Below are positions 24,761-38,685 of a stretch of 60,080 bases of DNA, in pieces; within the stretch, counting starts at the first letter, position 1; each line of letters opens with the position of its first letter. The notes under the pieces are model-generated. The model saw only the letters and a list, made by a program, of their open reading frames with translations. It was not told the origin of the DNA and did not search any database. The position numbers and the translations under genes are program-made. Source of the stretch: Hyphomicrobiales bacterium (GTDB lineage Bacteria; Pseudomonadota; Alphaproteobacteria; Rhizobiales; JAJFHB01); assembly GCA_021775615.1 (NCBI GenBank), contig JAJFHL010000043.1, positions 1 through 60,080 of the forward strand, in the 5' to 3' direction.

Positions 24761-25567
24761 TTATTTTTTTTGAAGCAAGACTATGGAAAGTCCCGCATGG
24801 GTATAGGCGTCGGGGTTCTTACACCACGCGTCCCATTCCTCGTGAAGTGCTTTGAAGTCGAGGTCGACGGTTTCTGATTCCTCAACGAACTGGATCACTT
24901 CGCCATAAATTCTGCGAAATCTTTCCAGGTTGCCCGGCGTGGTCGAGGGAATAACAACTTCCCAGGCGCCGCCGAGATTCCACGTCGGATAGTCGCCGAC
25001 ATTGCCCGCAAGCGTGCGAACGAAATCGCGGTTCAGACTGCGGTCGAGTTGCGATTTGATGAAGGCATCGAAAAATTCCATGAACCGGGGGCATTCGGGG
25101 TAGTAGTAGCGCCACACATCACGGGAATCCACAATCAGCAGGTGACCGCCGGGATTGAGCGATTCCGCGATGCTGGTCAGCACGTGCTCGGGATCCGGCA
25201 AGTGCTGGAACACCAAGCGGGCGAGGATGAAATCATACTTCCCCTCCACCGCATGCGCGTCGCCAACGCCGAAGCTGATCTTCTCGCTGCCCTGTTCCTT
25301 TCGGGCAATCTGGATGAACTCGTCGGAAATGTCGTAGCCAGTAAACTGCTTGTCCGGGAACCGTTCCGCCAGTTTGCCGAGGTAGTACCCGTTGCCGCAA
25401 CCGATATCGAGAACGCTCTGCGCGGCGTGCCAGGCGGGCGACTGATAGTAAAACGGCCATTCAAGGTCGAGGCAGAAATCGACCTGCAGGCGCTGCATCA
25501 GATCCCAGCGTTCAACTTCGCTGTTCTCGTGATTGCCAAAGTCAGACAGTTCGTGCTTGGGAACCAT
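24761..25567 (-). CDS. SAM-dependent class I methyltransferase
   Basis: 268 residues. SAM-binding motif I is VLDIGCGNG (residues 52-60), followed by FTGYDISDEFIQIARKE (acidic loop Asp), and LARLVFQHLPDPEHVL then LNPGGHLLIVDSRD, the layout of Methyltransf_25/11 enzymes. The C-terminal 100 residues (from FMEFFDAFIKSQLDRS) form a helical cap that may select substrate. It lies 38 bp after the TIR-like gene on the same strand, probably one transcript. It could tailor the peptide or a small signal molecule; substrate unknown. Confidence 0.85.
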   Translation of the reverse strand: MVPKHELSDFGNHENSEVERWDLMQRLQVDFCLDLEWPFYYQSPAWHAAQSVLDIGCGNGYYLGKLAERFPDKQFTGYDISDEFIQIARKEQGSEKISFGVGDAHAVEGKYDFILARLVFQHLPDPEHVLTSIAESLNPGGHLLIVDSRDVWRYYYPECPRFMEFFDAFIKSQLDRSLNRDFVRTLAGNVGDYPTWNLGGAWEVVIPSTTPGNLERFRRIYGEVIQFVEESETVDLDFKALHEEWDAWCKNPDAYTHAGLSIVLLQKK

Positions 25568-25605: not shown

Positions 25606-26823
25606 TTAGTTCTGCGGCCGCAGCGGATTGTTGGGATGGTCATGTGGCCAGAACCGCTCGACAAAGCTGATGATGAAGTAGGTGGTGTGCGCTTTGTCCG
25701 TATCCCCGACCGTATGCTTGGCAACCAGACACGGCATGTAGACCTTGCCGCGAATGTTGACGTTCGGGTGGTTATCCTCCATGCGCAGGGGCACTTCGGC
25801 GCTGGTCATGGTCGATCCGAAAATGAGATTCTCGCTGAGCCGGGCCTGATCCACGTTAAAGGCGCTCAGATTTTCGTCCGACACAAACGGCTCGATCGAA
25901 TCCATCAGCATCTGATAGGTCACCTTATTGGGACCCTGCGAGGGAAACTGTGTGTTCTGGTTGATGCAGAAGATGTTCTTGAATTCATCATTTGCGTCGC
26001 GGACAATAGGTTGTTCGGTATCCACCATGTCTGTTGCATGATACCTGAACCGTTCAGCGCGCTTTTTCCATTTGATCTGAATAACACTGGTTGGGAGCAT
26101 AACATCCCAACCCTTAATGAAGCCTTCCGGCCGGCGCCGTTCGGTCAGTTCCGACATGTCGCGCGGCACGTTGATGGCTTCGTTCTCGATTTCCTGCAGG
26201 CACTGTCCGAGCAGCGTAATGAAATACTGGTCGGTCACATCGATGGCGGTCGCCAGCTTTTCCGGAATGCCGGGCGTAAACCAGTTGAACTGCGATGCGA
26301 CTTCGGTCGCCACTTTCTTCAGATTGTCGTCCGCTGGCGGCAGGGCATGGATGGCGAAGTTGTCGAGATAGATCGGCTTGTGCTGGAAGAACTGGTTGCG
26401 CAGACCGTCGCCCTCGGCCATGTCGCTGTCGCGGTAGAACAGGATTGCGACCGGATTGTAGAACAGGCGGATCGCGATCTCGAAAATCACGTTGATGTTG
26501 CGCTCGCCCAGGATGGCGACGACGATGTTGGCCTTGGTGATCTTCTCCAGCGCCCGTTCTGAAATGCCGCCGGCGCGGATGTTGCAGATTTCGACATTGT
26601 AACCGATCGGGTCGGAACGGCCGGGCGACATCACCGTGATCTTGCTTTCGATGATGTGCTTGATTCGGTGATAGTCCAGCTGGAAGAGGTGCTCGCGCTC
26701 GGGGTCGTTCGATCCGAAAGAGGTCAGGACCGTGATCGACGCCTTGATCGGCTCTTCCTCGGGCACCGCTTCGGCGCCCAGGGAAGGGGTCATTGGCACG
26801 ACATTGTCAGCTGTATTGGACAT
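25606..26823 (-). CDS. TIR-like/nucleoside deoxyribosyltransferase-like protein with C-terminal domain of unknown function
   Basis: 405 residues. After a ~25-residue flexible start, residues ~28-135 form an alpha/beta unit with I-T-V-L-T-S-F-G-S and ITKANIVVAILGERNINVIF, then Glu115 and AIRLFYNPVAILFYRD. This is the layout of TIR-like and NDT/SLOG-type nucleotide-handling domains, where the Glu after N-V-x-F is usually catalytic. Residues ~150-405 are not recognised and end in a conserved-looking FIISFVERFWPHDHPNN. GGAGAAAC stands before the chosen ATG. It is divergent from the ABC exporter. It could be a nucleotide sensor or NAD-active effector; the assignment rests on visual fold recognition. 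Confidence 0.6.
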   Translation of the reverse strand: MSNTADNVVPMTPSLGAEAVPEEEPIKASITVLTSFGSNDPEREHLFQLDYHRIKHIIESKITVMSPGRSDPIGYNVEICNIRAGGISERALEKITKANIVVAILGERNINVIFEIAIRLFYNPVAILFYRDSDMAEGDGLRNQFFQHKPIYLDNFAIHALPPADDNLKKVATEVASQFNWFTPGIPEKLATAIDVTDQYFITLLGQCLQEIENEAINVPRDMSELTERRRPEGFIKGWDVMLPTSVIQIKWKKRAERFRYHATDMVDTEQPIVRDANDEFKNIFCINQNTQFPSQGPNKVTYQMLMDSIEPFVSDENLSAFNVDQARLSENLIFGSTMTSAEVPLRMEDNHPNVNIRGKVYMPCLVAKHTVGDTDKAHTTYFIISFVERFWPHDHPNNPLRPQN

Positions 26824-27151
26824 TGTTTCTCCGACCAATTCCTTGACTGAAGCTTGACTACCCGATCCCTTTATACAATTCCACCGCGGCTTGTATACGT
26901 CAAGGTTCGAGTAGGGTTATTCCGTACCGGCAATTCAAACATTTTTGGTTTGTCCGGCGCATCCCGGCACCGCCGCGACTGACATGGGTAATCCTCTCGA
27001 AACTTCCAGTGCGCTAGATCACACCCGGTGACGGGAGATGGTTCTTGTCACGCCACCCCGATATAGGTTTACATAGCCGCCGGCTTCAAGATCGTGTGCT
27101 TATGCGGACATCCGAAAAATGCGATCGCGAGCTTCGGATGAAGGAGAGTTG
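26824..27151. promoter_or_regulatory. Divergent control region between the TIR-like gene and the ABC exporter operon
   Basis: 328 bases with no gene. It must carry promoters for both directions. Visible items are a direct repeat CTTGACT-GAAG-CTTGACT (26842-26859), an inverted repeat CAAAC-7 bp-GTTTG (26936-26952), and a weak candidate -35 TTGTCA (27045-27050) ahead of the ABC gene with no good -10. None is strong enough to assign to a factor. The central location suggests shared control of both arms. Confidence 0.4.
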
Positions 27152-29752
27152 ATGACGAGCGAACCCGACCTCGTGCCTGATACGCTCAAGGAGCGACTGC
27201 GCATATTCCATCCCGATTACCGGGGCCTGATGCTCGGACTTGTGGCCATCGGCGCGATCGTGGCCGGCCTGATGTTCCTCAGCCTGGAGCTGATCAAGGC
27301 GATCGTGCAGAGCTTTTCGTCGTCGGGTGGTCAAATTCCCCTGCCAAAGCAGGAGCCGTTTCATTTCATCCTGCGCACGTTGTCCGATCCTGGATGGTTC
27401 GGTACGGGGGGCAGGCTGGTTGTCGCGGTGCTGGTGGCCTACGCCGCCGTCGAACTGATCAACGCGGTCATGCGTTTCGTCACCATCAAGGTTGAGGCGC
27501 GGCTCGAAATCCGCTCACAAAACGATATCGAGCAGACCTTGCTCGCCAATCTGCTGCGCAAGGACGACAAGTTTTTCCTGACCCATTCGGCGGCCGAGAT
27601 CGCCAACCGCCTGAATGTCGATACGCGCGACATCATTCAGCGCCGGAAGACCGTGATTTCGCTGCTGTCGACCGTCATGCATGCCAGCGCCATTTTGTTC
27701 TCCCTGGCCAGTGCCGACTGGATCTATGCGGTTGTCGCCCTGCTGTTCAGCTCGATCGGCGTCATCGTCATGCACTTCATGCTGGGTGAGATGGAGTACC
27801 TGCGCCGCGAGCAGTTCGAGAGCGACGACAACATCAAGGCGACGTTTGAGGACTATCTGGGCGCGGCACCTGAAATTCAGGTCGGCAATCTCTACGACAA
27901 GGTGCTGCGCCGGGTGAAGTCGGTGCAGGATCGCAGGTTCGCGGCCTTCATGCGGACCACCGTGCTGAACGGCCGGCTGGCGTCGATCTACGCGGTCAAC
28001 CAGCTGGTTGCATTCCTCGCCATACTCGGCGCAATCGCCTGGACCCTGTTCTCAGGCGACGGCGCAACCGTCAACGGTCTGGTGGCGGCGGTGATCGCCG
28101 CCGTGCCACGGCTCTATGGCAATATTTCCGATCTGGCCCGGATCTTCATGGAACTGCGACTGTCCAAGGTCTCGGTCCGGCGGCTCGAGGAATATGGAAC
28201 CCCCGGTCCGGGCCCGAAAGCGGCGCCCAAGGCATTGCCGCCGCCAGGCGGGCCGGCCCCAATCACCATCGACAAGGTCAAGTATGCCTATACGCCGGGC
28301 CAGTTGCGCGGTGGTCCGGACGGCATTTCGCTGACCATCAAGCCAAACACGATGAATGTGATCGTCGGGCCGGCGGGATCGGGAAAATCGACCTTAGCCC
28401 AACTCATCATGGGGCGTATGGAGCTCGCATCCGGCAGCATATCCATGGGTGAACAGCAACTGAGCGGGCTCGGCCCCAGTGACCGGTCGGGCATCTTCAG
28501 CTACATGCCCCAATCGCTGATCGTCGTGGACGGCACCCTGGAGGAGAACATCCGCTTTGGCATTCCCACCGCCCGGCAGTCCGCCGACGAGCAGCTCGAT
28601 GGGGCGGCCATGTCGTGGGTCGACCGCACGACGGTGAGCATCCTGGCGCGCGAGCGGGCGCTTGAAATGATGCCGGTAGACGGGGACCTTGAGCCGTACA
28701 ATGCGGGCATCGCCGAAATGCGCGCGGCGCTGCGCGCCCGTGTCGAACGCGAGGCCAACATTCCTGTCATGCCGTTCGATCCGAGTTCGGTGGTGCCGCG
28801 TCTCACGGTTCTGGAGAACCTGACCACGAGTGCCGCGGACATGGGGCTCCTGTTCCGCTCGACCCGCAGCCGCGAGCACGAGACAGCTCTCAACCGGCTG
28901 TCGGAAATGCCGGAAAGCGCGCCGATCATCGATTTCGCCCGCAGCGTCTTCGCCCAGACCAGCCAGATGCTGCAACGCTGCCCGGCCTATGACGCCTACA
29001 GCGGTCTGGCGCCGTTTCCGATCACGCCGATGGTGTGGGACTTCCGCACCCAGCTTCTCAGGCGCGGACCGCTCGACAAGCCGGATCCCAAGACACGGAT
29101 GGACCTGCTGTTCGCCGGACTGACGGCGGCGCCGCCGGAAGCGGACGGCACGGCAACGGAAATGCTCATCCAGTTCCTCGGCAAGTCCGCCGGCAGCCCG
29201 TTCGCAGATGCGGTTTCGAAAATGTTCGGGCAGGCGCTGACACCGCTCAGCGCCGACCAGCTCAACCGCAACATGAGCTGGCGCGACAACCTGCTGTTCG
29301 GCGTGGCACGGATCACCAACTCCAAGGCCGCCGCGGAAGTCAACCGCGTGATTCTGGAGGAGGTCGCCGGCAAGCCGGTGGACCTGCCGATGCTGCGCTC
29401 GGGCCTGCGCTACCATGTCGGGCGTCAGGGCAAGCGCCTGTCGGGCGGTCAGCGTCAGCTGGTCTGCCTGTGCCGGACGTTCCTGCAAGGCCACCCGGTC
29501 ATCATTGTCGACGAGCCGACTGCCGCGCTCGACCCGAAGAACCGCGCGGCCGTCAATACACTGCTCCGCGAGGCCGCCGGCGAGCGCACGATCATTGCAA
29601 TCACGCATGATGTGGAACTGGCGAAGCTGGCCGACAACATCATCATGATGAAGGACGGTCGCCTGTGGGCATCCGACACGTTCGATGCACTGGTGCAAAA
29701 GGTCCCAGAGTTCCGGCAGATGATCAATATGAGGGAAGAGGCTGGGATATGA
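27152..29752 (+). CDS. ABC exporter (fused membrane and ATPase domains) with large NBD insertion
   Basis: 866 residues. Residues ~25-340 are an exporter-type membrane domain with about six hydrophobic segments. The nucleotide-binding domain has Walker A GPAGSGKS (406-413), Q-loop Gln454, signature LSGGQ (763-767), Walker B VIIVDE (783-788) and switch His819. Q-loop to signature is ~309 residues, against roughly 60 in normal exporters. The ~250-residue insertion contains segments echoing the host helical domain (TLEENIRFG, LTVLENLTT, SWRDNLLFG). No C39 peptidase domain is present. The ATG with GGAGAGTTG is chosen. First gene of a four-gene unit; its stop overlaps the CNB start (ATGA). Likely exports the peptide product. 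Confidence 0.85.
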   Translation: MTSEPDLVPDTLKERLRIFHPDYRGLMLGLVAIGAIVAGLMFLSLELIKAIVQSFSSSGGQIPLPKQEPFHFILRTLSDPGWFGTGGRLVVAVLVAYAAVELINAVMRFVTIKVEARLEIRSQNDIEQTLLANLLRKDDKFFLTHSAAEIANRLNVDTRDIIQRRKTVISLLSTVMHASAILFSLASADWIYAVVALLFSSIGVIVMHFMLGEMEYLRREQFESDDNIKATFEDYLGAAPEIQVGNLYDKVLRRVKSVQDRRFAAFMRTTVLNGRLASIYAVNQLVAFLAILGAIAWTLFSGDGATVNGLVAAVIAAVPRLYGNISDLARIFMELRLSKVSVRRLEEYGTPGPGPKAAPKALPPPGGPAPITIDKVKYAYTPGQLRGGPDGISLTIKPNTMNVIVGPAGSGKSTLAQLIMGRMELASGSISMGEQQLSGLGPSDRSGIFSYMPQSLIVVDGTLEENIRFGIPTARQSADEQLDGAAMSWVDRTTVSILARERALEMMPVDGDLEPYNAGIAEMRAALRARVEREANIPVMPFDPSSVVPRLTVLENLTTSAADMGLLFRSTRSREHETALNRLSEMPESAPIIDFARSVFAQTSQMLQRCPAYDAYSGLAPFPITPMVWDFRTQLLRRGPLDKPDPKTRMDLLFAGLTAAPPEADGTATEMLIQFLGKSAGSPFADAVSKMFGQALTPLSADQLNRNMSWRDNLLFGVARITNSKAAAEVNRVILEEVAGKPVDLPMLRSGLRYHVGRQGKRLSGGQRQLVCLCRTFLQGHPVIIVDEPTAALDPKNRAAVNTLLREAAGERTIIAITHDVELAKLADNIIMMKDGRLWASDTFDALVQKVPEFRQMINMREEAGI

Positions 29753-30174
29753 CCCTCGAGACACGCATCAGAACCTTGCACAATTGTGCGTTTTTCAGTG
29801 TCGTGCCCGAGCCGGACCTCGTGGTGCTGGCGGAGGCCATGCACGAGGAAATGTTTGGCGATGGCGAGCTGGTTTTCGAATATGGCGACCGGGCGGACCG
29901 GGTCTATGTGGTCTCGGAGGGCGAGCTGATGGCGGTCGTGCCCGGCAAGGAAGGCACAGCCAGGCAGATCGGACCGGGCGACCTTGTCGGAGAGTACGGT
30001 CTGTTCGAACACGGCGCGCGGTCGGCGACGGTAACCTGCCAGAGCGCGGTCACCATGCTGTCGATGGATTATCCGCGGTTTCGCGAGTTCCTTGTGACAT
30101 TTCCAGAGGCGACACTATCTATACTGGGCAGGACGGTCAGACGCCTGCTGGTTCTGGAAACCAAGTCACGGTGA
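29749..30174 (+). CDS. Stand-alone cyclic-nucleotide-binding protein
   Basis: 141 residues, one CNB (CAP_ED) domain and nothing else. The phosphate-binding cassette is intact: GPGDLVGEYGLFEHGARSAT, with Glu82 (ribose contact) and Arg91 (phosphate contact). No HTH or catalytic domain follows, so it probably acts by binding another protein. The start overlaps the ABC exporter stop by ATGA, suggesting it regulates that ATPase. A predicted nucleotide cyclase is encoded two genes downstream in the same unit, an obvious source of ligand. Confidence 0.88.
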   Translation: MTLETRIRTLHNCAFFSVVPEPDLVVLAEAMHEEMFGDGELVFEYGDRADRVYVVSEGELMAVVPGKEGTARQIGPGDLVGEYGLFEHGARSATVTCQSAVTMLSMDYPRFREFLVTFPEATLSILGRTVRRLLVLETKSR

Positions 30175-30178
30175 CAGT

Positions 30179-30862
30179 ATGACAAGTGCGGACGTGCAAC
30201 ACGAGCAGCCCCTGCTGGCGCAGGAAGTGATCGAAACGGTGTCCCGTGAGGGCTATTTCCGAGGACCGTCAAAGACCACCATCGATGAATTTCGCAGCAT
30301 TGCGGCGGCGTTCGGAGACGTCTTTTACGAGGCCGACGTGCGTATGGGCGGAGAGCGTCCGCGCAACTACCAACTGCCGTCGCAAATCGATTTTCACACC
30401 GATCACGTGTCGGCGGAGGTTGCCGCCTGGTATTGCCTCGAACGTGAAAGCGACGGGGGGGCGATGCAGTTCATCGACCTTGCCCCGATTGCCGAAGACC
30501 TGAGCCGGGACGAGCTTGCCGATCTGGCGCGGGTGCGGGTGCCCGACAATGCGGTGTGGTCCGAGGGCGGTGACATTGCGCTGTGCACGGTGGAGGGCGA
30601 CCAGGTGTCGTTTCACTATGTTCCATGGCTTGATCTGAAAGTGCCGGACGACGCGGCGCGGCGGGCACTCGACAGGTTCGAAGCCGGAGTGCGCCGGGCC
30701 AAGGCCGCGGACATCATCGAAATGGACCTGACGCCGGGTGAGCTCGTCTTCGTCGACAACCGCCGCATCATGCACGGGCGCGCGGCGATCCCCGCCGACA
30801 GCAGGCGTCATCTCAAGCGCCTGTGGATCCGCTCCGACAGATCCGGCGATAAAGTGGTGTAA
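30179..30862 (+). CDS. Small TauD/clavaminate-synthase-like Fe(II)/2-oxoglutarate oxygenase
   Basis: 227 residues. The facial triad is visible as DFHTDH (His73, Asp75) and RRIMHGR (His199), with Arg215 or Arg218 in HLKRLWIR as the 2-oxoglutarate anchor. This is a TauD/TfdA-type fold but shorter than TauD (~280). Such enzymes hydroxylate or desaturate small molecules or peptides. It lies four bases after the CNB gene and ten before the cyclase gene, so is in one transcript. A tailoring role on the peptide is possible; substrate unknown. Confidence 0.85.
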   Translation: MTSADVQHEQPLLAQEVIETVSREGYFRGPSKTTIDEFRSIAAAFGDVFYEADVRMGGERPRNYQLPSQIDFHTDHVSAEVAAWYCLERESDGGAMQFIDLAPIAEDLSRDELADLARVRVPDNAVWSEGGDIALCTVEGDQVSFHYVPWLDLKVPDDAARRALDRFEAGVRRAKAADIIEMDLTPGELVFVDNRRIMHGRAAIPADSRRHLKRLWIRSDRSGDKVV

Positions 30863-30872
30863 GATCCCGCGG

Positions 30873-32726
30873 ATGGATCACGAAGAACTCCGCGAAGCGA
30901 TCAGGCAGGTCAAGGACCTGGAGGCGCGCGGCGCCTATTTTCGCGCCGCGGATGCGGCTGACCGCGCTCTTGCGGCGATCGATGACGATGCCGACGAAGA
31001 GGCCCGGCACCAGCTCCACTACCTGCATGTACGCATCGTGGCGCGCAGCGGCGCCACCCAGCAGGCGCGCAAGCTTTACGAGGAGTACGGTATCGGCGCG
31101 CGCACCGACGACCTCGATGCGCGAACGCTCGACGCCCGCATTCTCAAGGACAAGGCGCTCAAGTCAAAGGAGCCGAAGCGGCAGGGCCGCCTGAACGAGG
31201 CGGCGCAAAAGTATCATCAGGTGTTCGACCAGTTGCCGGACAGCTATCCCGCCGTCAATGCCGCGACCCTGTACTTCCTGGCGGGCCGGCAGGCAGAAGC
31301 GGAGGCGCTGGCGCGGGCGACGCTGGAAAATTGCGCATCGGAGAAGCCGCAAGGAGACTGGGGTGTCTACTTCCACGCGGCGACGGTGGCCGAGGCGTCG
31401 CTGCTGCTTGGCGACCTGGCGGTCGCCGAACAGCATATCCGCCGGGCGGGCGAGATCGAAGCGGTTGACTACGCGACCCGCACGACAACCCGCAAACAGC
31501 TGAAACTGATCTGCGAGACCAAGCGGATCGACAAGGGCGTCCTTGATGCGATTCGGGTTCCCGGTGTTCTCTACTTTGCCGGGCACATCATTGGAGCGCC
31601 GGGCAGGGGAGGCCGCTTTCCCGCCGAGCAGGAAGCGCAAGTCCAGGACGAAATTGAGCGCTATCTCGAAGACCGCGACATCGGCGTGGCCTTTGGTTCG
31701 CTGGCGGCCGGCGCCGATATCATGGTCGCGGAAGCCTGCATCCGCCGTGGAATAGACGTCCACGCGGTTCTGCCCTTCAACAAGGCCGACTTTTTTGCGC
31801 AATCGGTTCAGATGTCACAGGGTGGCTGGCGTGAGCGCTTTGAGGAGTGTTTTGCATGGTGCGAGGCCAATGAGGCCACAGGCAGCGGCTCGATCCAGTA
31901 TGCGACGGACGGCTCGTTCCTGGGCGACGAGAGCCTGTTCATGTATGCCGCGCGGTTCGCCATGGGACTTGCCATGCTGCGGGCGCGCAACCTCGATACG
32001 GATCTGCGGATGCTGGCAATTTACGATGGCAATGGCGGAACCGGCATCGGCACCGACGGAAGCATCGATGTGTGGGCCGACGCGGGACTGCCGTGCGATG
32101 TGATCGACGTTACGCAGATGGAGGCGCCGAGGGTGACCATCGGCGGGCCGCAGGATACGCCCGTGGCGCGCCCGGCGCTGCAGCTTCCCGAACGGCAGCC
32201 GCGCGCCATTCTGTTCGGAGACGTGGTGGGGTTTTCCAGCCTGGACGAGGAGATGGTGCCGCTGTTCCACGACTGCTTCATGTCGCGCGTGTCCGGCGTG
32301 CTCGACGACTACAAGGAACATGTGCTGTACCGCAACAGCTGGGGCGACGCGGTCTATGTGGTGCTCGACAACGCCCTGAACGCGGCGAGCTGCGGCCTTT
32401 CGATCCAGAAGGTCGTGCGCAAGCACGATTTCCGTGCCGACGGTTTGAACACGGACCTGGCGCTGCGTCTCGGCGGACATTTCGGGCCGGTCTTCTGCGG
32501 CAAGGATTACATCCGCAAGGAGACCACGTATTTCGGCTCGCACGTGACCAAGGCGGCGCGCATCGAGCCGGTGACCCCGCCCGGTGAACTTTACGTTACC
32601 GAAGCCATGGCGGCGGCGCTCGCATTGTCGGAAAACGATACGATCGACTGTGATTATGTGGGGCCGGTTCCGCTGGCGAAAAACTATGGCGAGCTGCGTA
32701 TGTACGTCCTGAGGGAACGGGCGTAA
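30873..32726 (+). CDS. TPR / SLOG-like / class III nucleotide cyclase fusion
   Basis: 617 residues in three parts. Residues ~1-215 are alpha-helical TPR-like (TRAFs-binding type). Residues ~228-410 look SLOG/LOG-like (VAFGSLAAGADIMVAEACIR, then VLPFNKADF). Residues ~443-617 form a class III cyclase domain. The metal Asps are present (Asp450 in LFGDVVGFSS, Asp492 in SWGDAV) and the transition-state Arg563. The positions that normally bind purine and stabilise the transition state are changed: Asn488 for Lys, Thr552 for Asp, Thr559 for Asn. It therefore may make an unusual nucleotide or be weak. No membrane segment. Last gene of the ABC-CNB-oxygenase unit. Confidence 0.8.
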   Translation: MDHEELREAIRQVKDLEARGAYFRAADAADRALAAIDDDADEEARHQLHYLHVRIVARSGATQQARKLYEEYGIGARTDDLDARTLDARILKDKALKSKEPKRQGRLNEAAQKYHQVFDQLPDSYPAVNAATLYFLAGRQAEAEALARATLENCASEKPQGDWGVYFHAATVAEASLLLGDLAVAEQHIRRAGEIEAVDYATRTTTRKQLKLICETKRIDKGVLDAIRVPGVLYFAGHIIGAPGRGGRFPAEQEAQVQDEIERYLEDRDIGVAFGSLAAGADIMVAEACIRRGIDVHAVLPFNKADFFAQSVQMSQGGWRERFEECFAWCEANEATGSGSIQYATDGSFLGDESLFMYAARFAMGLAMLRARNLDTDLRMLAIYDGNGGTGIGTDGSIDVWADAGLPCDVIDVTQMEAPRVTIGGPQDTPVARPALQLPERQPRAILFGDVVGFSSLDEEMVPLFHDCFMSRVSGVLDDYKEHVLYRNSWGDAVYVVLDNALNAASCGLSIQKVVRKHDFRADGLNTDLALRLGGHFGPVFCGKDYIRKETTYFGSHVTKAARIEPVTPPGELYVTEAMAAALALSENDTIDCDYVGPVPLAKNYGELRMYVLRERA

Positions 32727-33018: not shown

Positions 33019-34161
33019 ATGTCTAAAGCGTATGAAGATTTCTTCCAGCAGATCAACTACGTGACCTTGAAGCTGACCCCCGGGTGCAACCTGAAATGCA
33101 CCTATTGTAACGTTGAGGCGATTACCCCCAAGACGCCCAAGATGGGCATCGAGCGGTTTCGCCAGATCGCCGACCTTCTCGTCGTGAATTCGAAGAGCCC
33201 GTTTGTGGGTCTCGAGTTTCATGGTGGCGAGCCCATGCTGCTGCCTGACGAGTGGTATGAGGAAGCTGTGGGCTATGCCCGCAAGCTGGCGAACGACAAT
33301 AACAAGATCATCGAGTTTCCGCTTGTCACGAATGGCACCATGCTGAGTGAGAAGCGGCTTGAGAAACTGTTGTCTCTCGGCATCCGCATCTGTCTGAGCT
33401 GTGACGGCCCGCCGCATATCAATGACGAATTGCGTGGTGGTGGCGAGCGTGTCGAGCGTACCTTCAAGATGCTTCGTGACAAGCGCGTTCCGTTTAGTGT
33501 GATCACCGTTGTGGGGACGCACAACTGGAACCGCATAAAAGAAGTGATGGACTGGTTCGGCGAGGTTGGTGTCTACGACTACACCATCAACTTCGTGCAG
33601 CCTCAGGGCCGCGGCATGGATGCCGAACTGTTGTCGGGAGAACAGATGTTCACCACCATGCGCGATATCTTCGAGCATATGGAGAGCACCGACATCGACG
33701 TCCACGAGGCGGAAGTCATTGGCCGTGTCCAGAAGTTCGTGCGCGGCCGCGACAACCCCCCGCGCCCGGCGTGTCACGAGTTTCACTGCCAGGCCGGCAA
33801 GAACTATGTCGCCATCGACATGTTCGGCTCGGTGCATGCCTGCGGCACGGACCTGGCGCACCACAAGATCGGCCATGTCGATCTGCCGTTCAATCGCAAG
33901 CACTACGACAATGTTCTGGAAAAGCTCCACGACAAGGGCGACTGGGTGCTGCGATGCTTCGATTGCGATGCAGCCAAGATCTGCAATCACAGCTGCCCGA
34001 CGTCGGACGCGAATTCGGATATGTTCAAGGAATACGATTGCCTGTCTACAAAACTCCTGTGGCAGTATTTCTGCGAGAACCCAACCCGAGTGCAAAAGCT
34101 GCATGAACGCCTGTTGCGGAAGCGCTATGAAATGGCGCGTCAGGCACCAGCAGCCGAATAA
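33019..34161 (+). CDS. Radical SAM/SPASM peptide maturase
   Basis: 380 residues. The [4Fe-4S] SAM cluster motif is C23-x3-C27-x2-C30 (PGCNLKCTYC), then GGEP at 69-72. The SPASM-type C-terminal region has Cys at 252, 257, 275, 313, 316, 322, 326 and 341, enough for auxiliary clusters. This layout is typical of RiPP maturases that form C-C or C-S crosslinks. A precursor gene begins 107 bp downstream with another beyond it, so they are its likely substrates. W-x-N repeats in those peptides match the aromatic-x-x motifs crosslinked by cyclophane-forming enzymes. No RRE domain is fused. Exact chemistry is inferred. Confidence 0.92.
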   Translation: MSKAYEDFFQQINYVTLKLTPGCNLKCTYCNVEAITPKTPKMGIERFRQIADLLVVNSKSPFVGLEFHGGEPMLLPDEWYEEAVGYARKLANDNNKIIEFPLVTNGTMLSEKRLEKLLSLGIRICLSCDGPPHINDELRGGGERVERTFKMLRDKRVPFSVITVVGTHNWNRIKEVMDWFGEVGVYDYTINFVQPQGRGMDAELLSGEQMFTTMRDIFEHMESTDIDVHEAEVIGRVQKFVRGRDNPPRPACHEFHCQAGKNYVAIDMFGSVHACGTDLAHHKIGHVDLPFNRKHYDNVLEKLHDKGDWVLRCFDCDAAKICNHSCPTSDANSDMFKEYDCLSTKLLWQYFCENPTRVQKLHERLLRKRYEMARQAPAAE

Positions 34162-34268
34162 GAACAATGCGCGGCTCTTTAGAGTGAAGGGCCGCGCACC
34201 ATGAAACTGAGAGCCGGGGAACGGAACGCGTAAATTGCCAAAGTCCTACAACAGGAAGGGAGAAACTA

Positions 34269-34628
34269 ATGGCGATCCTGAGAAGTGTTGACGGTAAGTT
34301 CTACGAAGTGCCAGACAAGGATCTGGACAAGTTCGAAATCCCCGCCGATCAGTTGAGAGACAAGCTCGGTGATATGGGGCAGGCCGGCGGCCCAGGGGCC
34401 GGTGGTCCCGGTGGTGGCAATGCCGGTCCCGGTGGCCCGGGCGGTGGCGGCGGCTCACAGGTTGTGATCCAGATCCACGGCGGCGGAACCCAGGTGGGTG
34501 GCGGCGGCGGCGGCGGCTCTCCGGCTCCTTCCGGTGAAGGCGACGATGACAGCGTGCAGCCCTATTGGGGCTGGTGGCGCAACTGCTGGCAGAACTGCTG
34601 GCGGAACTGCTGGCGCAACTGCTACTGA
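34269..34628 (+). CDS. RiPP precursor peptide 1 (W-x-N-C repeat core)
   Basis: 119 residues. The leader, residues 1-35, starts MAILRSVDGKFYEVPDKDLD. A Gly/Pro-rich linker surrounds the conserved block SQVVIQIHGG (63-72). A short acidic stretch (EGDDDS) leads to the core, 99-119: Y-W-G-W then four W-x-N-C units (W103-C106, W107-C110, W111-C114, W115-C118) and terminal Tyr119. The second unit is W-Q-N-C, the others W-R-N-C. AAGGGAGA precedes the ATG. It lies between the rSAM gene and a strong terminator. The Gly/Cys/Trp composition and shared leader with two paralogues mark it as a modified peptide, not a structural Gly-rich protein. Confidence 0.93.
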   Translation: MAILRSVDGKFYEVPDKDLDKFEIPADQLRDKLGDMGQAGGPGAGGPGGGNAGPGGPGGGGGSQVVIQIHGGGTQVGGGGGGGSPAPSGEGDDDSVQPYWGWWRNCWQNCWRNCWRNCY

Positions 34629-34638
34629 TTGATAATCA

Positions 34639-34666
34639 GGCGCCGCGAAAATCGCGGCGCCTTTTT
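34639..34666 (+). terminator. Intrinsic terminator after precursor 1
   Basis: Perfect stem GGCGCCGCG/CGCGGCGCC with a short A-rich loop, followed by TTTTTC. It lies 11 bases after the precursor stop. It should end the rSAM-precursor transcript, at least partly, raising precursor message relative to downstream genes. Confidence 0.9.
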
Positions 34667-34947
34667 CCTGTCCGAAGCCAGTGTGCGTGAAGGCTTCCGG
34701 GGCCGGTCTTTGTGAGGCCGGCAGGCTTGGAACCGGGTCGACCGGCAGCGGCAGACGATCAGGCCGGGGTCCGGTACCGCAACCAGTTCTGTGGCCAAAA
34801 AAAGATCCCTGAAATCGATAACATTAACTCACCAAAGTGTGACCCGGATCATACGCAGAACCGTCTTGGGTGAATATCTTACGTGATGAGAGACAGGAAC
34901 GGATGCACGCGTTGCCATTGTAACATGATCTAGAAAAGGAGGATGTA
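34667..34947. other. Intergenic spacer ahead of precursor 2
   Basis: About 280 bases without an open frame worth calling. A promoter for precursor 2 and the MNIO operon is expected after the terminator, but no clear -35/-10 pair stands out. AAAAGGAGG at 34934-34942 is a near-perfect Shine-Dalgarno for precursor 2, much stronger than those of most genes in the window. Confidence 0.5.
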
Positions 34948-35277
34948 ATGGCGATCCTTAGAAGTGTTGACGGTAAGTTTTTCGAAGTTCCCGACAAAGA
35001 CCTGGCGAAGTTCGAGATTCCCGCCGATCAATTGCGTGAAAAGCTGGGTGACGCGGCTGAAGCCGGTCCCGGCGGCTCTGGTGGTCCGGCTGGTCCGGGC
35101 GGTCCGGGCGGCGGCGGAGCCGGTTCCCAGGTCGTGATCCAGATCCACGGTGGCGGAGCCGAAGCCGGCCCCGGTGCTGGCGCACCCAAAGGCGGTGACG
35201 AAGCCGAGCCCTACTGGGGCTGGTGGAGGAACTGCTGGCAGAACTGCTGGCGTAACTGCTGGCGCAACTGCTACTAA
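34948..35277 (+). CDS. RiPP precursor peptide 2 (W-x-N-C repeat core)
   Basis: 109 residues. Same design as precursor 1: leader MAILRSVDGKFFEVPDKDLA, Gly-rich linker, SQVVIQIHGG at 60-69, acidic spacer (GGDEAE), core 89-109 with four W-x-N-C units (second is W-Q-N-C) and terminal Tyr. The core is identical to that of precursor 1 while linkers differ in length and sequence, which argues for selection on leader, the VVIQIH block and core. Translated from a near-consensus ribosome site. It lies 54 bp upstream of the MNIO gene, with a hairpin between. Confidence 0.93.
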   Translation: MAILRSVDGKFFEVPDKDLAKFEIPADQLREKLGDAAEAGPGGSGGPAGPGGPGGGGAGSQVVIQIHGGGAEAGPGAGAPKGGDEAEPYWGWWRNCWQNCWRNCWRNCY

Positions 35278-35293
35278 ATCGCACGGAACGTAA

Positions 35294-35312
35294 TCACCGC
35301 CCCACGCGGTGA
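35294..35312 (+). promoter_or_regulatory. Hairpin between precursor 2 and the MNIO gene
   Basis: Inverted repeat TCACCGC-CCCAC-GCGGTGA without a following T-run. It could act as a processing or attenuation site that keeps precursor message more abundant than the enzyme message. Inferred from position only. Confidence 0.5.
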
Positions 35313-35331
35313 ACTATATGAGGTGATCTAA

Positions 35332-36549
35332 GTGCCTGGTAATGCAGCATACGGTTGTGGCATCGCCTACCGGAACTTCTTTCATTCCGCGTTGTTGAAA
35401 AACACGGACAAGATCGATTTTCTGGAGATCCCAACCGAAGATTACATCGTGCGCGCCCGTCGGATCATGACTGATCCGACGGGGTCGGTCTTGCGGGAGG
35501 CGATGGACGCCTTCCCAAGCGTCGCACATGGCATCTCTCTTTCGATCGGCTCCGTTGAACCGATCGACGAGGGAATTCTCACAGAAACCCGCAAATTTCT
35601 CGACGAATACGACTTCGATGAATGGAGCGACCATCTGACCTATCACCGGATGAAGGACCAGGATCTGACGATCTTCGTCTCGATTCCGTGGGATGAGGTT
35701 GCCGCGCGCTGGGTTGCGAGCCAATACAACCTCGCCCGGGAAATCATCAAACAGCCGTTCGGACTGGAACTGGTTGCCTACGGGTTCCCGGTCGCCGGAT
35801 CCGAGCTTTCGGAGGCCCAGTTCGCCAACAAGGTGGCTGAGTATACCGATTGCTGGTTCCTGCTTGACGTGTGCAACGTCTTCATCAACGCGGAGAACCA
35901 TGGCGGCGATCCCTATCAGTACATTCTCGATCTGCCGACCGACCGCATACAGCATATTCACATGGCCGGTGGACACTACATGGACGGCGAATGGGCGGAC
36001 AGCCACAGCCAGCCGGTGCCCAAGGAAGTGTTCGAACTGCTTGATTTCGCGCTTGAGCACACCGCCGCGCGCGCCGTCATTCTCGAACGCGATGCACCGC
36101 CGCGCGAATTCGGCCCGATCCTGGACGACGTGCTCCAGGCCAAGGAGATCTTCCTGAAGCACCGGCCCGAGAAGCCGGCGCCGAACCTGGAAGAGCTCGT
36201 CAAGCTGGCGCCCGAAGTGCAGACCGTGGTCGAGCCGCTGAGCCTCAACAGCCCGCCGGCGGAACTCAAGAACCTGCAAAACTACCAGCGCGCGCTGGTG
36301 GATTGCGCCTTCGAAATGGCCGTCGGCAAGCACGACGGCCAAACCGCCGAGCAGATTATCAACTCGTTCGATCTGACGGATGAGTGGAAGGCGCGGTGGC
36401 GCGAAATGAACTGGAAATCCATGCTCAAACTGAAAGACAAACTCGCCTTTATCATGGAGGACGACAAGGTATCGGCCCGCTACTACCAGATGGCAGAAAT
36501 GCACCACTGGGCCAGTATACTTGGACGCGATGCTGTGATAGGCAGGTAG
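35332..36549 (+). CDS. DUF692/MNIO-type multinuclear iron oxidase with C-terminal extension
   Basis: 405 residues. Residues ~8-270 match the DUF692 (MNIO) TIM-barrel: HGISLSIGSVEPID (His66), WSDHLTY (Asp100, His101), LLDVCNVFINAENH (Asp179, Asn182, His190), IHIHMAGGH (His208, His210, His215), DSHSQPVPKEV (Asp223, His225) and LERDAP (Glu252). Known members (MbnB, TglH and relatives) use Fe(II/III) to rework Cys residues of precursor peptides, usually with a partner protein. No partner gene is visible, but ~110 extra C-terminal residues (from about 295) could replace it. GTG start behind GAGGTG. Candidate enzyme for the four core Cys. Confidence 0.88.
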   Translation: MPGNAAYGCGIAYRNFFHSALLKNTDKIDFLEIPTEDYIVRARRIMTDPTGSVLREAMDAFPSVAHGISLSIGSVEPIDEGILTETRKFLDEYDFDEWSDHLTYHRMKDQDLTIFVSIPWDEVAARWVASQYNLAREIIKQPFGLELVAYGFPVAGSELSEAQFANKVAEYTDCWFLLDVCNVFINAENHGGDPYQYILDLPTDRIQHIHMAGGHYMDGEWADSHSQPVPKEVFELLDFALEHTAARAVILERDAPPREFGPILDDVLQAKEIFLKHRPEKPAPNLEELVKLAPEVQTVVEPLSLNSPPAELKNLQNYQRALVDCAFEMAVGKHDGQTAEQIINSFDLTDEWKARWREMNWKSMLKLKDKLAFIMEDDKVSARYYQMAEMHHWASILGRDAVIGR

Positions 36550-36550
36550 T

Positions 36551-37246
36551 ATGGATGCTGATGATCGTATATCGGACCTGACCAAGACTCTCGAAGAATC
36601 TCTTGATCAGGGAAAAGACGCGGTGAGGTCGATTTTGACCTCACTGCTTCAAACCGCAGCCGACGCGATGGATGCGACGGAATCGTCGCTGTTCCGCCCC
36701 GACGAGAACGATCATCTCTATTTCTATGCTTCGACCAATGCCGACCTCATGGCCAATCCGGAGATAAAACCGATCCCGATTGGCGGCAGCATTGCGGGCT
36801 TTGTCTATATCACCGGGCAAACGATTGCGCGCGAGGACGCCGGTGAAGCCAAGGATCATTTCGGCGAAATCGACAGGGCCATGAAGTACAAGACGCGCGA
36901 GTACATGGCGGCGCCGGTCGTCAGCGGCGACACGGTGCTTGGCGTGATATCGGTGGTCAACAGGCGTGAATCTTCCGAGCTCGGAAAATTCACCGAAGGC
37001 GAGATCCTGCTGGCCGAACGGTTTGGCCGGGCCTGCGGTATCGTGCTCAACCATGTGGACCGGGTCGAGCGTCAGACCGAGGCGACCAAGACCGCGCTTC
37101 TGTCTGGATCTGGCATTGACTCCGAAGCAGCCGCCATTCGCGCCCGTATCGATATGGCGCTGGGGGACATGTCCGATACCGACCTGGAACTGATCCGCGA
37201 CCTGAGCGAGCGCCTTGCCGGCGCATCTCCCGAAGACGAATACTGA
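36551..37246 (+). CDS. GAF-domain protein
   Basis: 231 residues. An N-terminal helix (~1-25) leads into a GAF domain (~25-170): AADAMDATESSLFRPDEN, IPIGGSIAGFVYITGQTI and APVVSGDTVLGVISVVNRR are typical. A helical tail includes RIDMALGDMSDTDLELIRDL. No output domain is fused. GAF domains bind small ligands such as cyclic nucleotides or redox cofactors, so with the cyclase and CNB genes nearby a signalling role in peptide production is plausible. It starts one base after the MNIO stop, so is translationally linked. Confidence 0.85.
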   Translation: MDADDRISDLTKTLEESLDQGKDAVRSILTSLLQTAADAMDATESSLFRPDENDHLYFYASTNADLMANPEIKPIPIGGSIAGFVYITGQTIAREDAGEAKDHFGEIDRAMKYKTREYMAAPVVSGDTVLGVISVVNRRESSELGKFTEGEILLAERFGRACGIVLNHVDRVERQTEATKTALLSGSGIDSEAAAIRARIDMALGDMSDTDLELIRDLSERLAGASPEDEY

Positions 37247-37275
37247 AACCTGCATTGCCCGGAGATCCATCAAAC

Positions 37276-38034
37276 GTGAGCGCCCTGTTTGACATCGATA
37301 AACTTCAACACGCCCTCGAGGTCGGCGATGGGGCCGGTGTGCGTGTGGCGGTGTTGGACTCCGGTGTCGATGAAACCCTGCCCGATTTCCAGCAAGATGT
37401 GACGTCCTATGAAATCCAGATGGCGGGCGGCCAGATGGAATGCGTCGAAACCACCGGGACCGATGAACTCGGCCACGGTACGGCGTGCGCGTGGATCATC
37501 AGATCCCTCGCGCCGAAGGCCGAGCTTCACAGCATCAAGATACTCGGCGGCGAAGCGCGCGGGACGAGTGCGGAACTGGCCCAGGGCATGCGATGGTCGA
37601 TCGACAACGGCATGAACGTGGTGAATATTTCCGCCGGTGTGCGCGGGCCCAGAAGCAAGGAATTGCTCAGCGCGGAAGCCGACCGGGCTTTGTTCGAAGG
37701 GGTTACGTTCGTTGCCGCCGCCCATAATCACGGGCTCGCCGCGTACCCGGCAAACCTCTCTTCGGTTCTGACCGTGACGTATGACAATTTCGAAGATACC
37801 CGCAGGTTCAGATACCGCACCAAGGAACAGGTCGAGTTGGAGGCGCACGGCATTTATGTCGAAACCCCCAAACCCGGTGGCGGCACCCGCTCATACACCG
37901 GCACCAGCTTCGCCTGTCCGCATGTGACAGGATTCGTGGCGCAGCTGTTGTCGGTCTATCCCGACCTGCAGCCGTTCGAAGTGCGGTCCCTGCTGTATCA
38001 TCTCGGCAGGCAGGCATCGGGCGAAGCGGACTGA
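37276..38034 (+). CDS. Cytoplasmic subtilisin-like (S8) serine protease
   Basis: 252 residues, a minimal S8 domain with no signal peptide or propeptide. The triad is Asp28 (VAVLDSGVD), His67 (GHGTACAW) and Ser211 (YTGTSFACPHVTG); Asn151 (AAHNHG) forms the oxyanion hole. The GTG start with GGAG eleven bases upstream is preferred over a TTG seven codons earlier lacking a ribosome site. Located between the GAF gene and precursor 3, it is the best candidate for removing the leader from modified precursors before export, since the ABC exporter lacks a peptidase domain. Confidence 0.9.
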   Translation: MSALFDIDKLQHALEVGDGAGVRVAVLDSGVDETLPDFQQDVTSYEIQMAGGQMECVETTGTDELGHGTACAWIIRSLAPKAELHSIKILGGEARGTSAELAQGMRWSIDNGMNVVNISAGVRGPRSKELLSAEADRALFEGVTFVAAAHNHGLAAYPANLSSVLTVTYDNFEDTRRFRYRTKEQVELEAHGIYVETPKPGGGTRSYTGTSFACPHVTGFVAQLLSVYPDLQPFEVRSLLYHLGRQASGEAD

Positions 38035-38140
38035 CGCGCGGCGGCCGTCAGTTCATCAGTATACTGATCGACGAATGCCCATGGTGGCGTTTTTCCTTCG
38101 CCATCACCCGCCCGGGATCGTCCCTGCAAATACTATTTTA

Positions 38141-38169
38141 TTGTTCCCTTGAAAATATATTGCTAGATT
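38141..38169 (+). promoter_or_regulatory. Candidate promoter of precursor 3
   Basis: TTGTTC, 17 bases, TAGATT in the most A+T-rich part of the gap (TTTTATTGTTCCC ... AAAATATATTGC), about 95 bases before the precursor 3 start. The match to sigma-70 consensus is moderate, so this is tentative. Separation from the protease gene by ~230 bp supports an own promoter. Confidence 0.35.
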
Positions 38170-38262
38170 TTGCTGCAGGTCTTTCACCAGCTTTTTGCCT
38201 GGAGGGGCATGGAACGAACCGTATATGAGCCATTGTTGCTTTAGTCAGAAAGGGAGAATGTA

Positions 38263-38598
38263 ATGGCGATCCTGAGAAGTGTTGATGGGAAGTTCTACGA
38301 AGTTCCAGACAAGGATCTCGAAAAGCTCGAGATCCCGGCCGACCAATTGAGAGAGAAACTGGGCGATCAGGCCCAGGCGGAGCCGGGCCCGGGCGGCCCC
38401 GGCGCGGGGCCTGGCGGTCCTGGTGGGGGCGGCGGTGGCGGAAGCCAGGTCGTCATCCAGATCCACGGTGGCGCCGGAGGTACCGGTCCGGGCGGCGGCC
38501 GCGGCGCAGATGACGGCGACGAAGTGCAGCCCTATTGGGGATGGTGGCGGAACTGCTGGCGCAATTGCTGGCGGAACTGCTGGCGCAACTGCTACTGA
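38263..38598 (+). CDS. RiPP precursor peptide 3 (W-R-N-C repeat core)
   Basis: 111 residues. Leader MAILRSVDGKFYEVPDKDLE, Gly/Pro-rich linker, SQVVIQIHGG at 61-70, acidic spacer (GADDGDE), core 91-111. Unlike the other two copies, all four units are W-R-N-C, giving one more positive charge in the core. AAGGGAGAATGT precedes the ATG. It is the last gene of the locus, apparently with its own promoter and a strong terminator, and may be expressed under different conditions. Confidence 0.93.
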   Translation: MAILRSVDGKFYEVPDKDLEKLEIPADQLREKLGDQAQAEPGPGGPGAGPGGPGGGGGGGSQVVIQIHGGAGGTGPGGGRGADDGDEVQPYWGWWRNCWRNCWRNCWRNCY

Positions 38599-38658
38599 CC
38601 GCGACGGCCCGGGCGGCCTAGGCCGCCTGGACACCACAGCAAACCAAGGTTCGACAAA

Positions 38659-38685
38659 GGCAGGCGGCAGCGCCTGCCTTTTTCT
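38659..38685 (+). terminator. Intrinsic terminator after precursor 3
   Basis: Stem GGCAGGCG/CGCCTGCC with GCAG loop followed by TTTTTCTTT. It marks the right end of the peptide locus, before the convergent crtI. Confidence 0.9.

Follow-up and report, generated by a model that had tools for sequence, protein, structure and literature searches.

Among the systems closest to the locus described here, the radical SAM (rSAM) enzyme PapB is a thioether former, and both PapB and QhpD link Cys to Asp or Glu. Cys-Thr links, as reported for CteB, also fall within the ranthipeptide class. Triceptides are three-residue cyclophane RiPPs, in which a C-C bond ties an aromatic ring to the beta carbon of the residue two places on. 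XncB and OscB are reported to join Trp to the Asn two residues on, producing i/i+2 cyclophanes (PMC11002830). In the qhp system, QhpE reportedly trims an rSAM-modified peptide that is then exported by an ABC transporter (PMC7876137). The MNIO (DUF692) products oxazolin (made by HvfB) and bufferin (made by BufB) are reported as 5-thiooxazoles, a modification of -4 Da per Cys, and the precursors of captophorins and bufferins have been sorted into Lys-Cys, Cys-Lys and DUF2282 categories (PMC13097082). A Cys-Tyr motif could be modified once by FonBC, and for some MNIOs the reported targets are Asp, Asn and Phe.

The locus analyzed here lies in a window of 60,080 nucleotides (the whole stretch of DNA examined; contig JAJFHL010000043.1, positions 1 to 60,080) from the 6.26 Mb genome of a Hyphomicrobiales bacterium (GCA_021775615.1, labelled G000). 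It contains a precursor family (leader, Gly-rich spacer and W-x-N-[C/H] core) that is kept with a SPASM rSAM, a divergent and extended MNIO, and a short subtilase, and is, to judge from these genes, very likely a RiPP gene cluster. Since W-x-N-C precursors adjoin two enzymes of kinds that rebuild such residues, the product of this bacterium is probably a peptide of a new kind, bearing rings and perhaps binding metal.

Gene layout and precursor peptides

The features of the locus are as follows, with the basis of each assignment in brackets.

24761..25567, minus strand: methyltransferase-domain protein, adjoining the block in the sister species too (Pfam)
25606..26838, minus strand: 410 aa protein, divergent from the exporter gene, without Pfam or NCBIfam match
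27119..29752, plus strand: ABC exporter-type protein, 877 aa (ORF, Pfam)
29749..30174, plus strand: cyclic-nucleotide-binding (cNMP) domain protein, 141 aa from ATG 29749 (ORF, Pfam)
30179..30862, plus strand: TauD-type dioxygenase, 227 aa (ORF, Pfam)
30873..32726, plus strand: TPR-S and nucleotide-cyclase protein, start taken as ATG 30873 (ORF, Pfam)
33019..34161, plus strand: SPASM rSAM enzyme, 380 aa (ORF, Pfam, NCBIfam)
34269..34628, plus strand: precursor A, 119 aa (ORF)
34638..34662, plus strand: terminator-like hairpin of 11 pairs directly 3' of precursor A (hairpin scan)
34948..35277, plus strand: precursor B, 109 aa, plan as A, four units (ORF)
35332..36549, plus strand: MNIO (DUF692) enzyme, GTG start, 405 aa (ORF, Pfam, NCBIfam)
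36551..37246, plus strand: GAF-domain protein, 231 aa, 1 base after the MNIO gene (ORF, Pfam)
37255..38034, plus strand: short subtilase (S8) with Asp/His/Ser motifs (ORF, Pfam, NCBIfam)
38263..38598, plus strand: precursor C, 111 aa, four W-R-N-C units (ORF)
38656..38681, plus strand: terminator-like hairpin of 11 pairs 3' of precursor C (hairpin scan)

The rSAM gene, precursors A and B, and the MNIO, GAF, S8 and precursor C genes follow one another in the same direction with gaps of 107, 319, 54, 1, 8 and 228 bases. A first-pass annotation of the DNA letters had described the precursors and the two modifying enzymes; it said nothing of the subtilase, the ABC exporter, the signalling genes or the extension of the MNIO.

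That annotation recognized three paralogous peptides of 109-119 aa, and the ORFs (119, 109 and 111 aa) do share a common leader, followed by a linker rich in Gly and by four W-x-N-C units as the core. In precursor A the leader spans residues 1-35, the linker contains SQVVIQI, and the core reads PYWGW-WRNC-WQNC-WRNC-WRNC-Y. The four units hold in all three peptides, but the single unit order given in that annotation does not, since the second unit is W-Q-N-C in precursors A and B while precursor C has W-R-N-C in 4/4 units.

A sister species of the same genus (G001) carries this block too, and its four precursors have 3, 3, 4 and 5 units. Together the seven precursors contain 27 units, every one of which retains Trp and Asn; the last position of the unit holds Cys in 24 and His in three, and the His units make up 3 of the 15 in the sister species. 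Replacing Cys by His takes two substitutions in the codon (TGC to CAC), which fits a ligand position. Over the 35-codon leader, 20 of the 21 pairs of precursors differ, by 11-20 silent versus 2-5 replacement codons, and the remaining pair is identical; the sequences thus indicate that both leader and core are under selection. From PYWGW onward the seven precursors contain no Asp or Glu, and Thr is also absent from the core. The peptides belong to none of the Lys-Cys, Cys-Lys and DUF2282 precursor types (the core is N-C-W/Y without Lys, and there was no Pfam match at E<=0.1), no signal peptide is apparent by eye, and the precursor family and its leader had no match in the libraries searched.

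The radical SAM enzyme and the predicted cross-link

The SPASM rSAM gene that had been placed beside the precursors stands, as its product matches Pfam Radical_SAM at 76.3 bits (cut-off 29.5) and carries, by eye, cysteines that follow the SPASM spacing rule (C257-x12-G270-x4-C275, C313-x2-C316-x5-C322-x3-C326 and C341). Its family matches begin at residues 12-18, so that an N-terminal recognition domain would hardly fit, and it has no Pfam match to a B12 domain. PapB is the best NCBIfam model (113.8 bits, cut-off 340) and DynA scores 81.7; the cyclophane-former models AmcB (77 of 425), YhhB (64.6 of 445) and GrrM/OscB (63 of 310 bits) are all under cut-off, as is QhpD (cut-off 453), and the XncB family was not recognised among the best 25 of 73 models. 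Relatives occur in 96 plasmid records, all at <60% identity; the 20 of these that were listed are 24-27% identical, and nine of them (25-26%) are annotated as QHNDH maturation enzymes.

The PapB and QHNDH affinities, together with a QhpE-like subtilase, favor a ranthipeptide-like alternative in which the rSAM makes Cys-to-Asn thioethers within C-W-x-N and the MNIO does something else. All of these scores are nevertheless under cut-off and the repeat core lacks Asp and Glu; moreover, Cys stands three residues before Asn in only 17 of the 27 units, whereas Trp stands two before it in every one, and Asn is kept beside the His units. We consider such thioethers unlikely. The earlier proposal that W-x-N is the unit most likely to be cross-linked is supported by its presence in all units and by the XncB and OscB precedent, but a simple reading of it has to contend with an rSAM that is nearest to PapB.

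The MNIO and the fate of cysteine

The DUF692/MNIO-like gene was likewise correctly assigned at the outset: residues 9-273 match Pfam MbnB_TglH_ChrH (PF05114) at 205.9 bits (cut-off 25), and a C-terminal extension (~277-405) has no Pfam or NCBIfam match over cut-off. The nearest NCBIfam models, both under cut-off, are HvfB (179.3 of 360 bits) and BufB (161.3 of 310). At E<=1e-30 an MNIO was found in 10 of 240 genomes; the nine besides G000 have homologues that are 28-34% identical, none of which extends past residue 304. When aligned with five of these nine (L039, L040, L041 and L043 were left out), the enzyme retains 14 of the 19 His/Asp/Glu columns that all five homologues share, including H66, H101, E146, D179, H190, H210, D223, H225, E252 and D254, the last of which maps, by our own mapping, to the proposed base FonB-Asp249. 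It deviates at 12 of 31 invariant polar columns, five of the 19 His/Asp/Glu columns among them. For example, one invariant His column is Gly214 (with His at 215), and near conserved acids E-N is changed to E-L and N-N to C-N. These departures at invariant columns suggest that its reaction may differ.

This genome contains one MNIO, and the PME1 partner, marked by DUF2063 (PF09836), was found in none of four genomes searched, including G000 (96.65% complete) and G001 (61%); the control search found it in 1 of 14 named genomes. The MNIO extension aligned to four HvfC-like proteins with an hhalign probability of 0.1%, and when modelled alone (pLDDT 64.4) gave no usable fold match (Foldseek best E 0.7, VIA best Z 4.8); the full MNIO model, at pLDDT 37.9, was unusable.

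An enzyme this divergent, in a genome where its usual partner was not found and acting beside units in which Cys is replaceable by His, could instead alter Trp, Asn or Tyr, much as other MNIOs act on Asp, Asn or Phe; the rSAM would still make cyclophanes, and Cys and His would serve as free metal ligands. Against this, the models nearest to the enzyme belong to families whose products are reported as 5-thiooxazoles (PMC13097082), and we regard an MNIO acting away from Cys as improbable. Cys oxidation by the MNIO, as first suggested, is plausible, but its extension to each unit is not general, given the His carried by three sister-species units.

Putative leader removal, export and signalling genes

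The best NCBIfam model for the subtilase, whose real start is perhaps GTG 37276, is QhpE (120.8 of 165 bits, under cut-off), and it is likely the leader protease. In Miltoncostaea, S8 and GAF genes are adjacent to each other and lie close to a cyclase/kinase gene. The ABC protein, likely the exporter of the product, has a nucleotide-binding domain match split over two separate stretches, and C39 peptidase is absent from its Pfam matches. The TPR-S/nucleotide-cyclase protein is likely a regulator, and the TauD-type dioxygenase is a possible further tailoring enzyme. The Pfam and NCBIfam query for the cNMP-binding protein began at 29743 rather than at ATG 29749. The 410 aa protein has two paralogues elsewhere in the genome and was found in G000 and G001 among four genomes searched. 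No metal-handling gene was seen among the Pfam matches of the block, nor any dehydrogenase subunits in it, and the PHROGs and PADLOC matches were all of a generic kind (rSAM, ABC, subtilase and cyclase). Overall, hairpins were no more frequent than in shuffles, and promoter and terminator counts showed no excess over them.

The several signalling-type genes of the block, the hairpins behind precursors A and C, and the Miltoncostaea arrangement could also point to an intracellular signalling or stress peptide that acts as a metal store or sensor under the control of the cyclase, GAF and TPR-S proteins, a reading compatible with the modifications discussed above. The ABC exporter-type gene upstream of the rSAM and precursor genes, which overlaps the cNMP-binding gene, argues against this insofar as it serves the peptide, and retention in the cell appears quite improbable.

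Distribution

All nine matches to a WxNCWxNC DNA pattern in the genome fall in the three precursor genes, and a backward control gave 0; the repeat in three genes is not chance. Four of 297 genomes of the order match, and in the two of 295 besides G000 and G001 the match falls in the wrong reading frame of a long, unrelated gene. The sister species keeps its precursors with both rSAM and MNIO.

A precursor search of 61 relatives found 2 genomes, and an S8 search (E<=1e-25) of 101 relatives found G000 and G001. In 385 genomes of the class, a leader HMM gave four matches at E<=0.01; only the one in G000 was convincing, and the other three were partial (E 0.003-0.009); G001 was not among the matches and was presumably not drawn in that sample. 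The rSAM (E<=1e-30) was found in G000 only among 398 genomes of the phylum. A genome contig collection yielded a single contig, that of G001, a weak negative because the scan used two peptide patterns only. Plasmids gave no match to the precursor but 458 records for S8 (best among matches listed, 39%), and none of 105 viral candidates for the precursor was confirmed. No further convincing W-x-N-C precursor was found among the genomes sampled. In open-licence PubMed Central, papers matching W-x-N-C strings were unrelated by title and none concerned the cluster's signalling terms. As far as these searches reach, the core and the combination are new, while the kinds of component are known.

The W-x-N motif alone is not diagnostic, because other bacteria have secreted-looking proteins with W-x-N-G repeats. 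W-x-N-x repeats matched in 38 of 398 genomes, and eight of ten fetched regions encode W-N-N-G-type repeats in secreted-looking proteins of ~130-165 aa (one interrupted by masked bases), which we take to resemble sulphur-globule proteins; the G727 and G561 regions had no such repeat ORF. A CxxxCxxC scan of ORFs around the fetched repeats found one rSAM-like ORF ~7 kb from a repeat gene (L196), and the rest looked spurious. Viral contigs contain 117 stretches with W-x-N-[CHYR] three times, 28 of them inside an ORF of at least 40 aa; 20 stretches in such ORFs have only C/H at both spacer places, and the two with DNA inspected (L184, L190) are near-perfect tandem repeats.

Between the two species the rSAM (88%) and MNIO (86%) are more conserved than any other non-precursor protein that was compared. 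Joint conservation of the genes is weak evidence, because the cluster is known in only two genomes and its flanks are conserved as well. Although those same two facts would suit unmodified Cys-rich (metallothionein-like) or structural peptides with the enzymes as accidental neighbours, the one-direction gene run and the high conservation of both enzymes make this very improbable.

A proposed pathway

The reading we prefer, with a probability of roughly 0.45 as assessed from sequence, combines Trp-Asn cyclophanes, Cys oxidation by the MNIO, leader removal by the subtilase and ABC export. The rSAM would take a hydrogen from the Asn beta carbon and bond that carbon to the Trp two residues before, giving one three-residue cyclophane per unit; three to five such rings would follow one another with a single residue between them. 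The MNIO would oxidise Cys, most likely to 5-thiooxazoles, with its own C-terminal extension replacing the DUF2063 partner. Leader cleavage by the QhpE-like subtilase would then take place in the cytosol, with the ABC protein exporting the product, and the cyclase, cNMP-binding, GAF and TPR-S proteins would control the system. The Cys and His positions between the rings might form a metal (copper?) binding face.

Only tentatively do we suggest a hybrid RiPP class in which Trp-Asn cyclophanes alternate with Cys thiooxazole or His, a rod-like product with a row of metal ligands between rigid rings, made in part by a self-sufficient MNIO with an in-chain partner. If so, a single product would bring together rSAM cyclophanes and MNIO metal-binding peptides, both of them young fields; the natural series of cores (3 to 5 units with Cys/His swaps) would allow each enzyme's needs to be tested; and there would be an MNIO that may act without the separate partner protein used by others.

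Comparison with known systems

PapB and QhpD ranthipeptides differ from this system in that the core here has no Asp/Glu acceptor and the rSAM scores 113.8 against the PapB cut-off of 340. Maturation of the QHNDH gamma subunit (QhpC, QhpD, QhpE, QhpF) is similar in that an rSAM, a subtilase and an ABC transporter are reported to serve one leader-bearing peptide (PMC7876137), but dehydrogenase subunits were not seen in the block, the core lacks Asp and Glu, and the models are under cut-off. In biphenomycin-like peptides and aminopyruvatides an MNIO and an rSAM are also described as working on one precursor; their rSAM is B12-dependent and their motifs are others, whereas here a SPASM enzyme without a B12 match accompanies W-x-N-C.

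Captophorins and bufferins (HvfB, BufB, FonB) resemble this system in the MNIO, which is nearest the HvfB and BufB models, and in precursors with Cys-bearing repeats. They differ in that here the genome has no DUF2063 match and the MNIO has an extension instead, an rSAM is present, the core has no Lys-Cys or Cys-Lys motif, and no signal peptide is apparent by eye. From the triceptides (XncB, OscB/GrrM, YhhB) the locus differs in an rSAM far under the listed cyclophane-former models, in the Cys or His that serves as spacer, in its additional MNIO gene and in an unmatched leader. As in triceptides, however, a SPASM rSAM adjoins a precursor with aromatic-x-Asn units, their conserved aromatic-x-x motif recurs as W-x-N in 27/27 units, and Asn at its third place has reported precedent (PMC11002830).

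Organization of the locus

C330, one of the 392 contigs in a genome of 6.26 Mb and 96.65% completeness, makes up the window, and the features named in the first-pass annotation, which had proposed three precursors with W-x-N-C repeats plus radical SAM and MNIO enzymes at 33019-38685, were all present where it had placed them. The region is arranged as follows:

27119-29752, + strand: ABC exporter-type protein
29749-30174, + strand: cNMP-binding protein
30179-30862, + strand: TauD-type dioxygenase
30873-32726, + strand: TPR-S/cyclase protein
33019-34161, + strand: SPASM radical SAM enzyme (rSAM)
between the rSAM and MNIO genes, + strand: precursor A, then precursor B
35332-36549, + strand: MNIO (DUF692) enzyme
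3′ of MNIO, + strand: GAF protein, subtilase and precursor C, in that order

The four upstream genes (ABC to TPR-S/cyclase) overlap their neighbors or are spaced by 4-10 bases, and a gap of 292 bases separates this group from the rSAM gene. Precursors A and C are each followed by an 11-pair hairpin, and the scan listed none between precursor B and the MNIO gene; hairpins in the region are about as numerous as in shuffled sequences (13 vs. 12.6), so placement alone was used. Upstream of the RiPP cluster, a TPR-S domain and a nucleotide cyclase are joined in one protein, and it is possible that a cyclic nucleotide controls peptide production through it.

Precursor peptides and their core

Over the 35 codons of the leader, the seven precursors of two species (the window and G001, a sister species of the same genus) differ by 11-20 silent and 2-5 replacement changes in 20 of 21 pairs. 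The three window precursors had no match in Pfam or NCBIfam at E≤0.1, and precursor A had none in PHROGs at E≤1. Although the Gly-rich linker varies in length, all seven precursors (34948-35277 and six others) retain the motif SQVVIQI within it unchanged, and this motif may serve as an additional site for recognition or cleavage.

Together the precursors carry 27 core units (4, 4 and 4 in the window; 3, 3, 4 and 5 in G001), with Trp at position 1 and Asn at position 3 throughout, Arg (24), Gln (2) or Asn (1) at position 2, and Cys (24) or His (3, every one in G001) at position 4, although these counts, from non-independent paralogs of two sister genomes, describe constraint rather than test it. 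The unit is defined by Trp and Asn, while position 4 tolerates Cys or His; a Cys-to-His change takes two base changes, and the one-step alternatives are absent. From these patterns, Trp and Asn can be read as a ring-forming pair and Cys or His as a ligand position. Arg is encoded by AGG, CGC, CGG and CGT and Asn by AAC or AAT, so these units are no recently expanded DNA repeat, in contrast to the two look-alikes from viral contigs whose sequence was inspected. Repeats of W-N-N-G also occur in secreted-looking proteins of several genomes from other classes of the same phylum (L193-L199, L201), which we take to be possibly sulfur-globule proteins.

Predicted modifications

The SPASM cysteines are present in the rSAM enzyme, and a short stretch precedes its rSAM match. 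Its top NCBIfam model, among the best 25 of 73, is PapB (113.8 bits), which favors thioether formation, followed by sulfatase maturase (100.9), DynA (81.7), QhpD (79.6) and AmcB (77); all five scores are far under cut-off, so the sequence leaves cyclophane versus thioether unsettled. A PDB search matched nine distinct rSAM sequences (top, 54 bits). Thioether formation would need a Cys close to every Asn, but Cys lies three residues N-terminal of only 17 of the 27, whereas Trp lies two residues before all 27. Trp-Asn links to the beta carbon are made from C6 by XncB and from C7 by OscB, according to PMC11002830. W-x-N cyclophanes are the probable product here.

The MNIO enzyme is nearest to the HvfB (179.3 of 360 bits) and BufB (161.3 of 310) models. 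Compared with five of nine homologs, it retains 19 of 31 invariant polar columns and 14 of 19 invariant His/Asp/Glu columns, altering 5; two Asn adjoining conserved acids are also altered. Residues from about 277 to 405 matched no Pfam or NCBIfam family over cut-off, and no homolog of the nine aligned beyond residue 304. Partners are usual and many lack the Pfam signature, as PMC12452194 reports, so this extension may, as a fair guess, be such a partner in diverged form, joined to the MNIO in one chain. Among G000 (the window's genome), G001 and two further genomes of the family (G002, G003), PF09836 (DUF2063) had no match; PF05114 had one in G000 and one in G001. MNIO oxidation of Cys appears rather likely, and conversion to 5-thiooxazole specifically is a tentative proposal.

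Predicted processing and export

The subtilase is short, has no signal peptide apparent by eye, carries D, H and S motifs beginning at residues 33, 73 and 216 of the ORF, and scores 120.8 of 165 bits against the QhpE model. In the qhp system, QhpE cuts the leader off an rSAM-modified peptide before ABC export, as outlined in PMC7876137; by analogy of order, the window protein would remove the leader of the modified precursor before export, and its role in leader cleavage is likely. Pfam ABC_tran matches two stretches of the exporter (best, 401-498) and NCBIfam exporter models match around 720-870, so that its nucleotide-binding domain looks split; the G001 counterpart is likewise 877 aa.

Conservation and related loci

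In G001 the block genes are in identical order, with four precursors, one more than in the window. Identities (tblastn) are 88% for rSAM, 86% for MNIO, 83% for the subtilase and the 25606-26838 protein, 82% for a methyltransferase, 81% for cNMP, 79% for cyclase, 68% for GAF, 65% for TauD and 63% for ABC. The flanks are common to both genomes as well, with polyprenyl-synthase and amine-oxidase-type genes at one end and genes interpreted as thiolase and lyase at the other, so plain inheritance within the genus appears to account for the region. In the same family, neither the precursor nor the MNIO had a match in G002 (71% complete) or G003 (99%).

The 410 aa protein (25606-26838, − strand) has no family match and two paralogs in the same genome (L054 1381-2544, L055 368-1528), one of which lies in the same ORF, C-terminal of an apparent trypsin-type protease domain (by eye), presumably an arrangement as in conflict or signaling systems. 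The best plasmid relative listed for the subtilase (39% identity), from Miltoncostaea oceani, adjoins a GAF-protein gene, as in the window; nearby are a protein in which the motif ETEAHA recurs, a cNMP-like stretch, and a kinase gene whose start resembles a cyclase. This locus (L207 2051-2608 and 9950-11343) is perhaps another peptide system with an S8-GAF pair.

Comparison with known systems

The locus is almost certainly a RiPP cluster. A single account, with Trp-Asn cyclophanes, oxidized Cys, QhpE-like leader removal, ABC export and possible metal binding, is given a probability of about 0.45; its boldest form is unlikely, and metal binding by the product is an even bet. All such likelihoods are estimates by judgement rather than computed values. 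The product would be a modified RiPP, placed in neither triceptides nor captophorins pending chemistry. No description of a W-x-N-C core, or of an MNIO paired with a SPASM rSAM, was found in the open-licence literature searched. The combination of MNIO and rSAM in one cluster is already known from biphenomycin-like peptides and aminopyruvatides, whose rSAM is a B12-rSAM, whereas that of the window is a SPASM rSAM.
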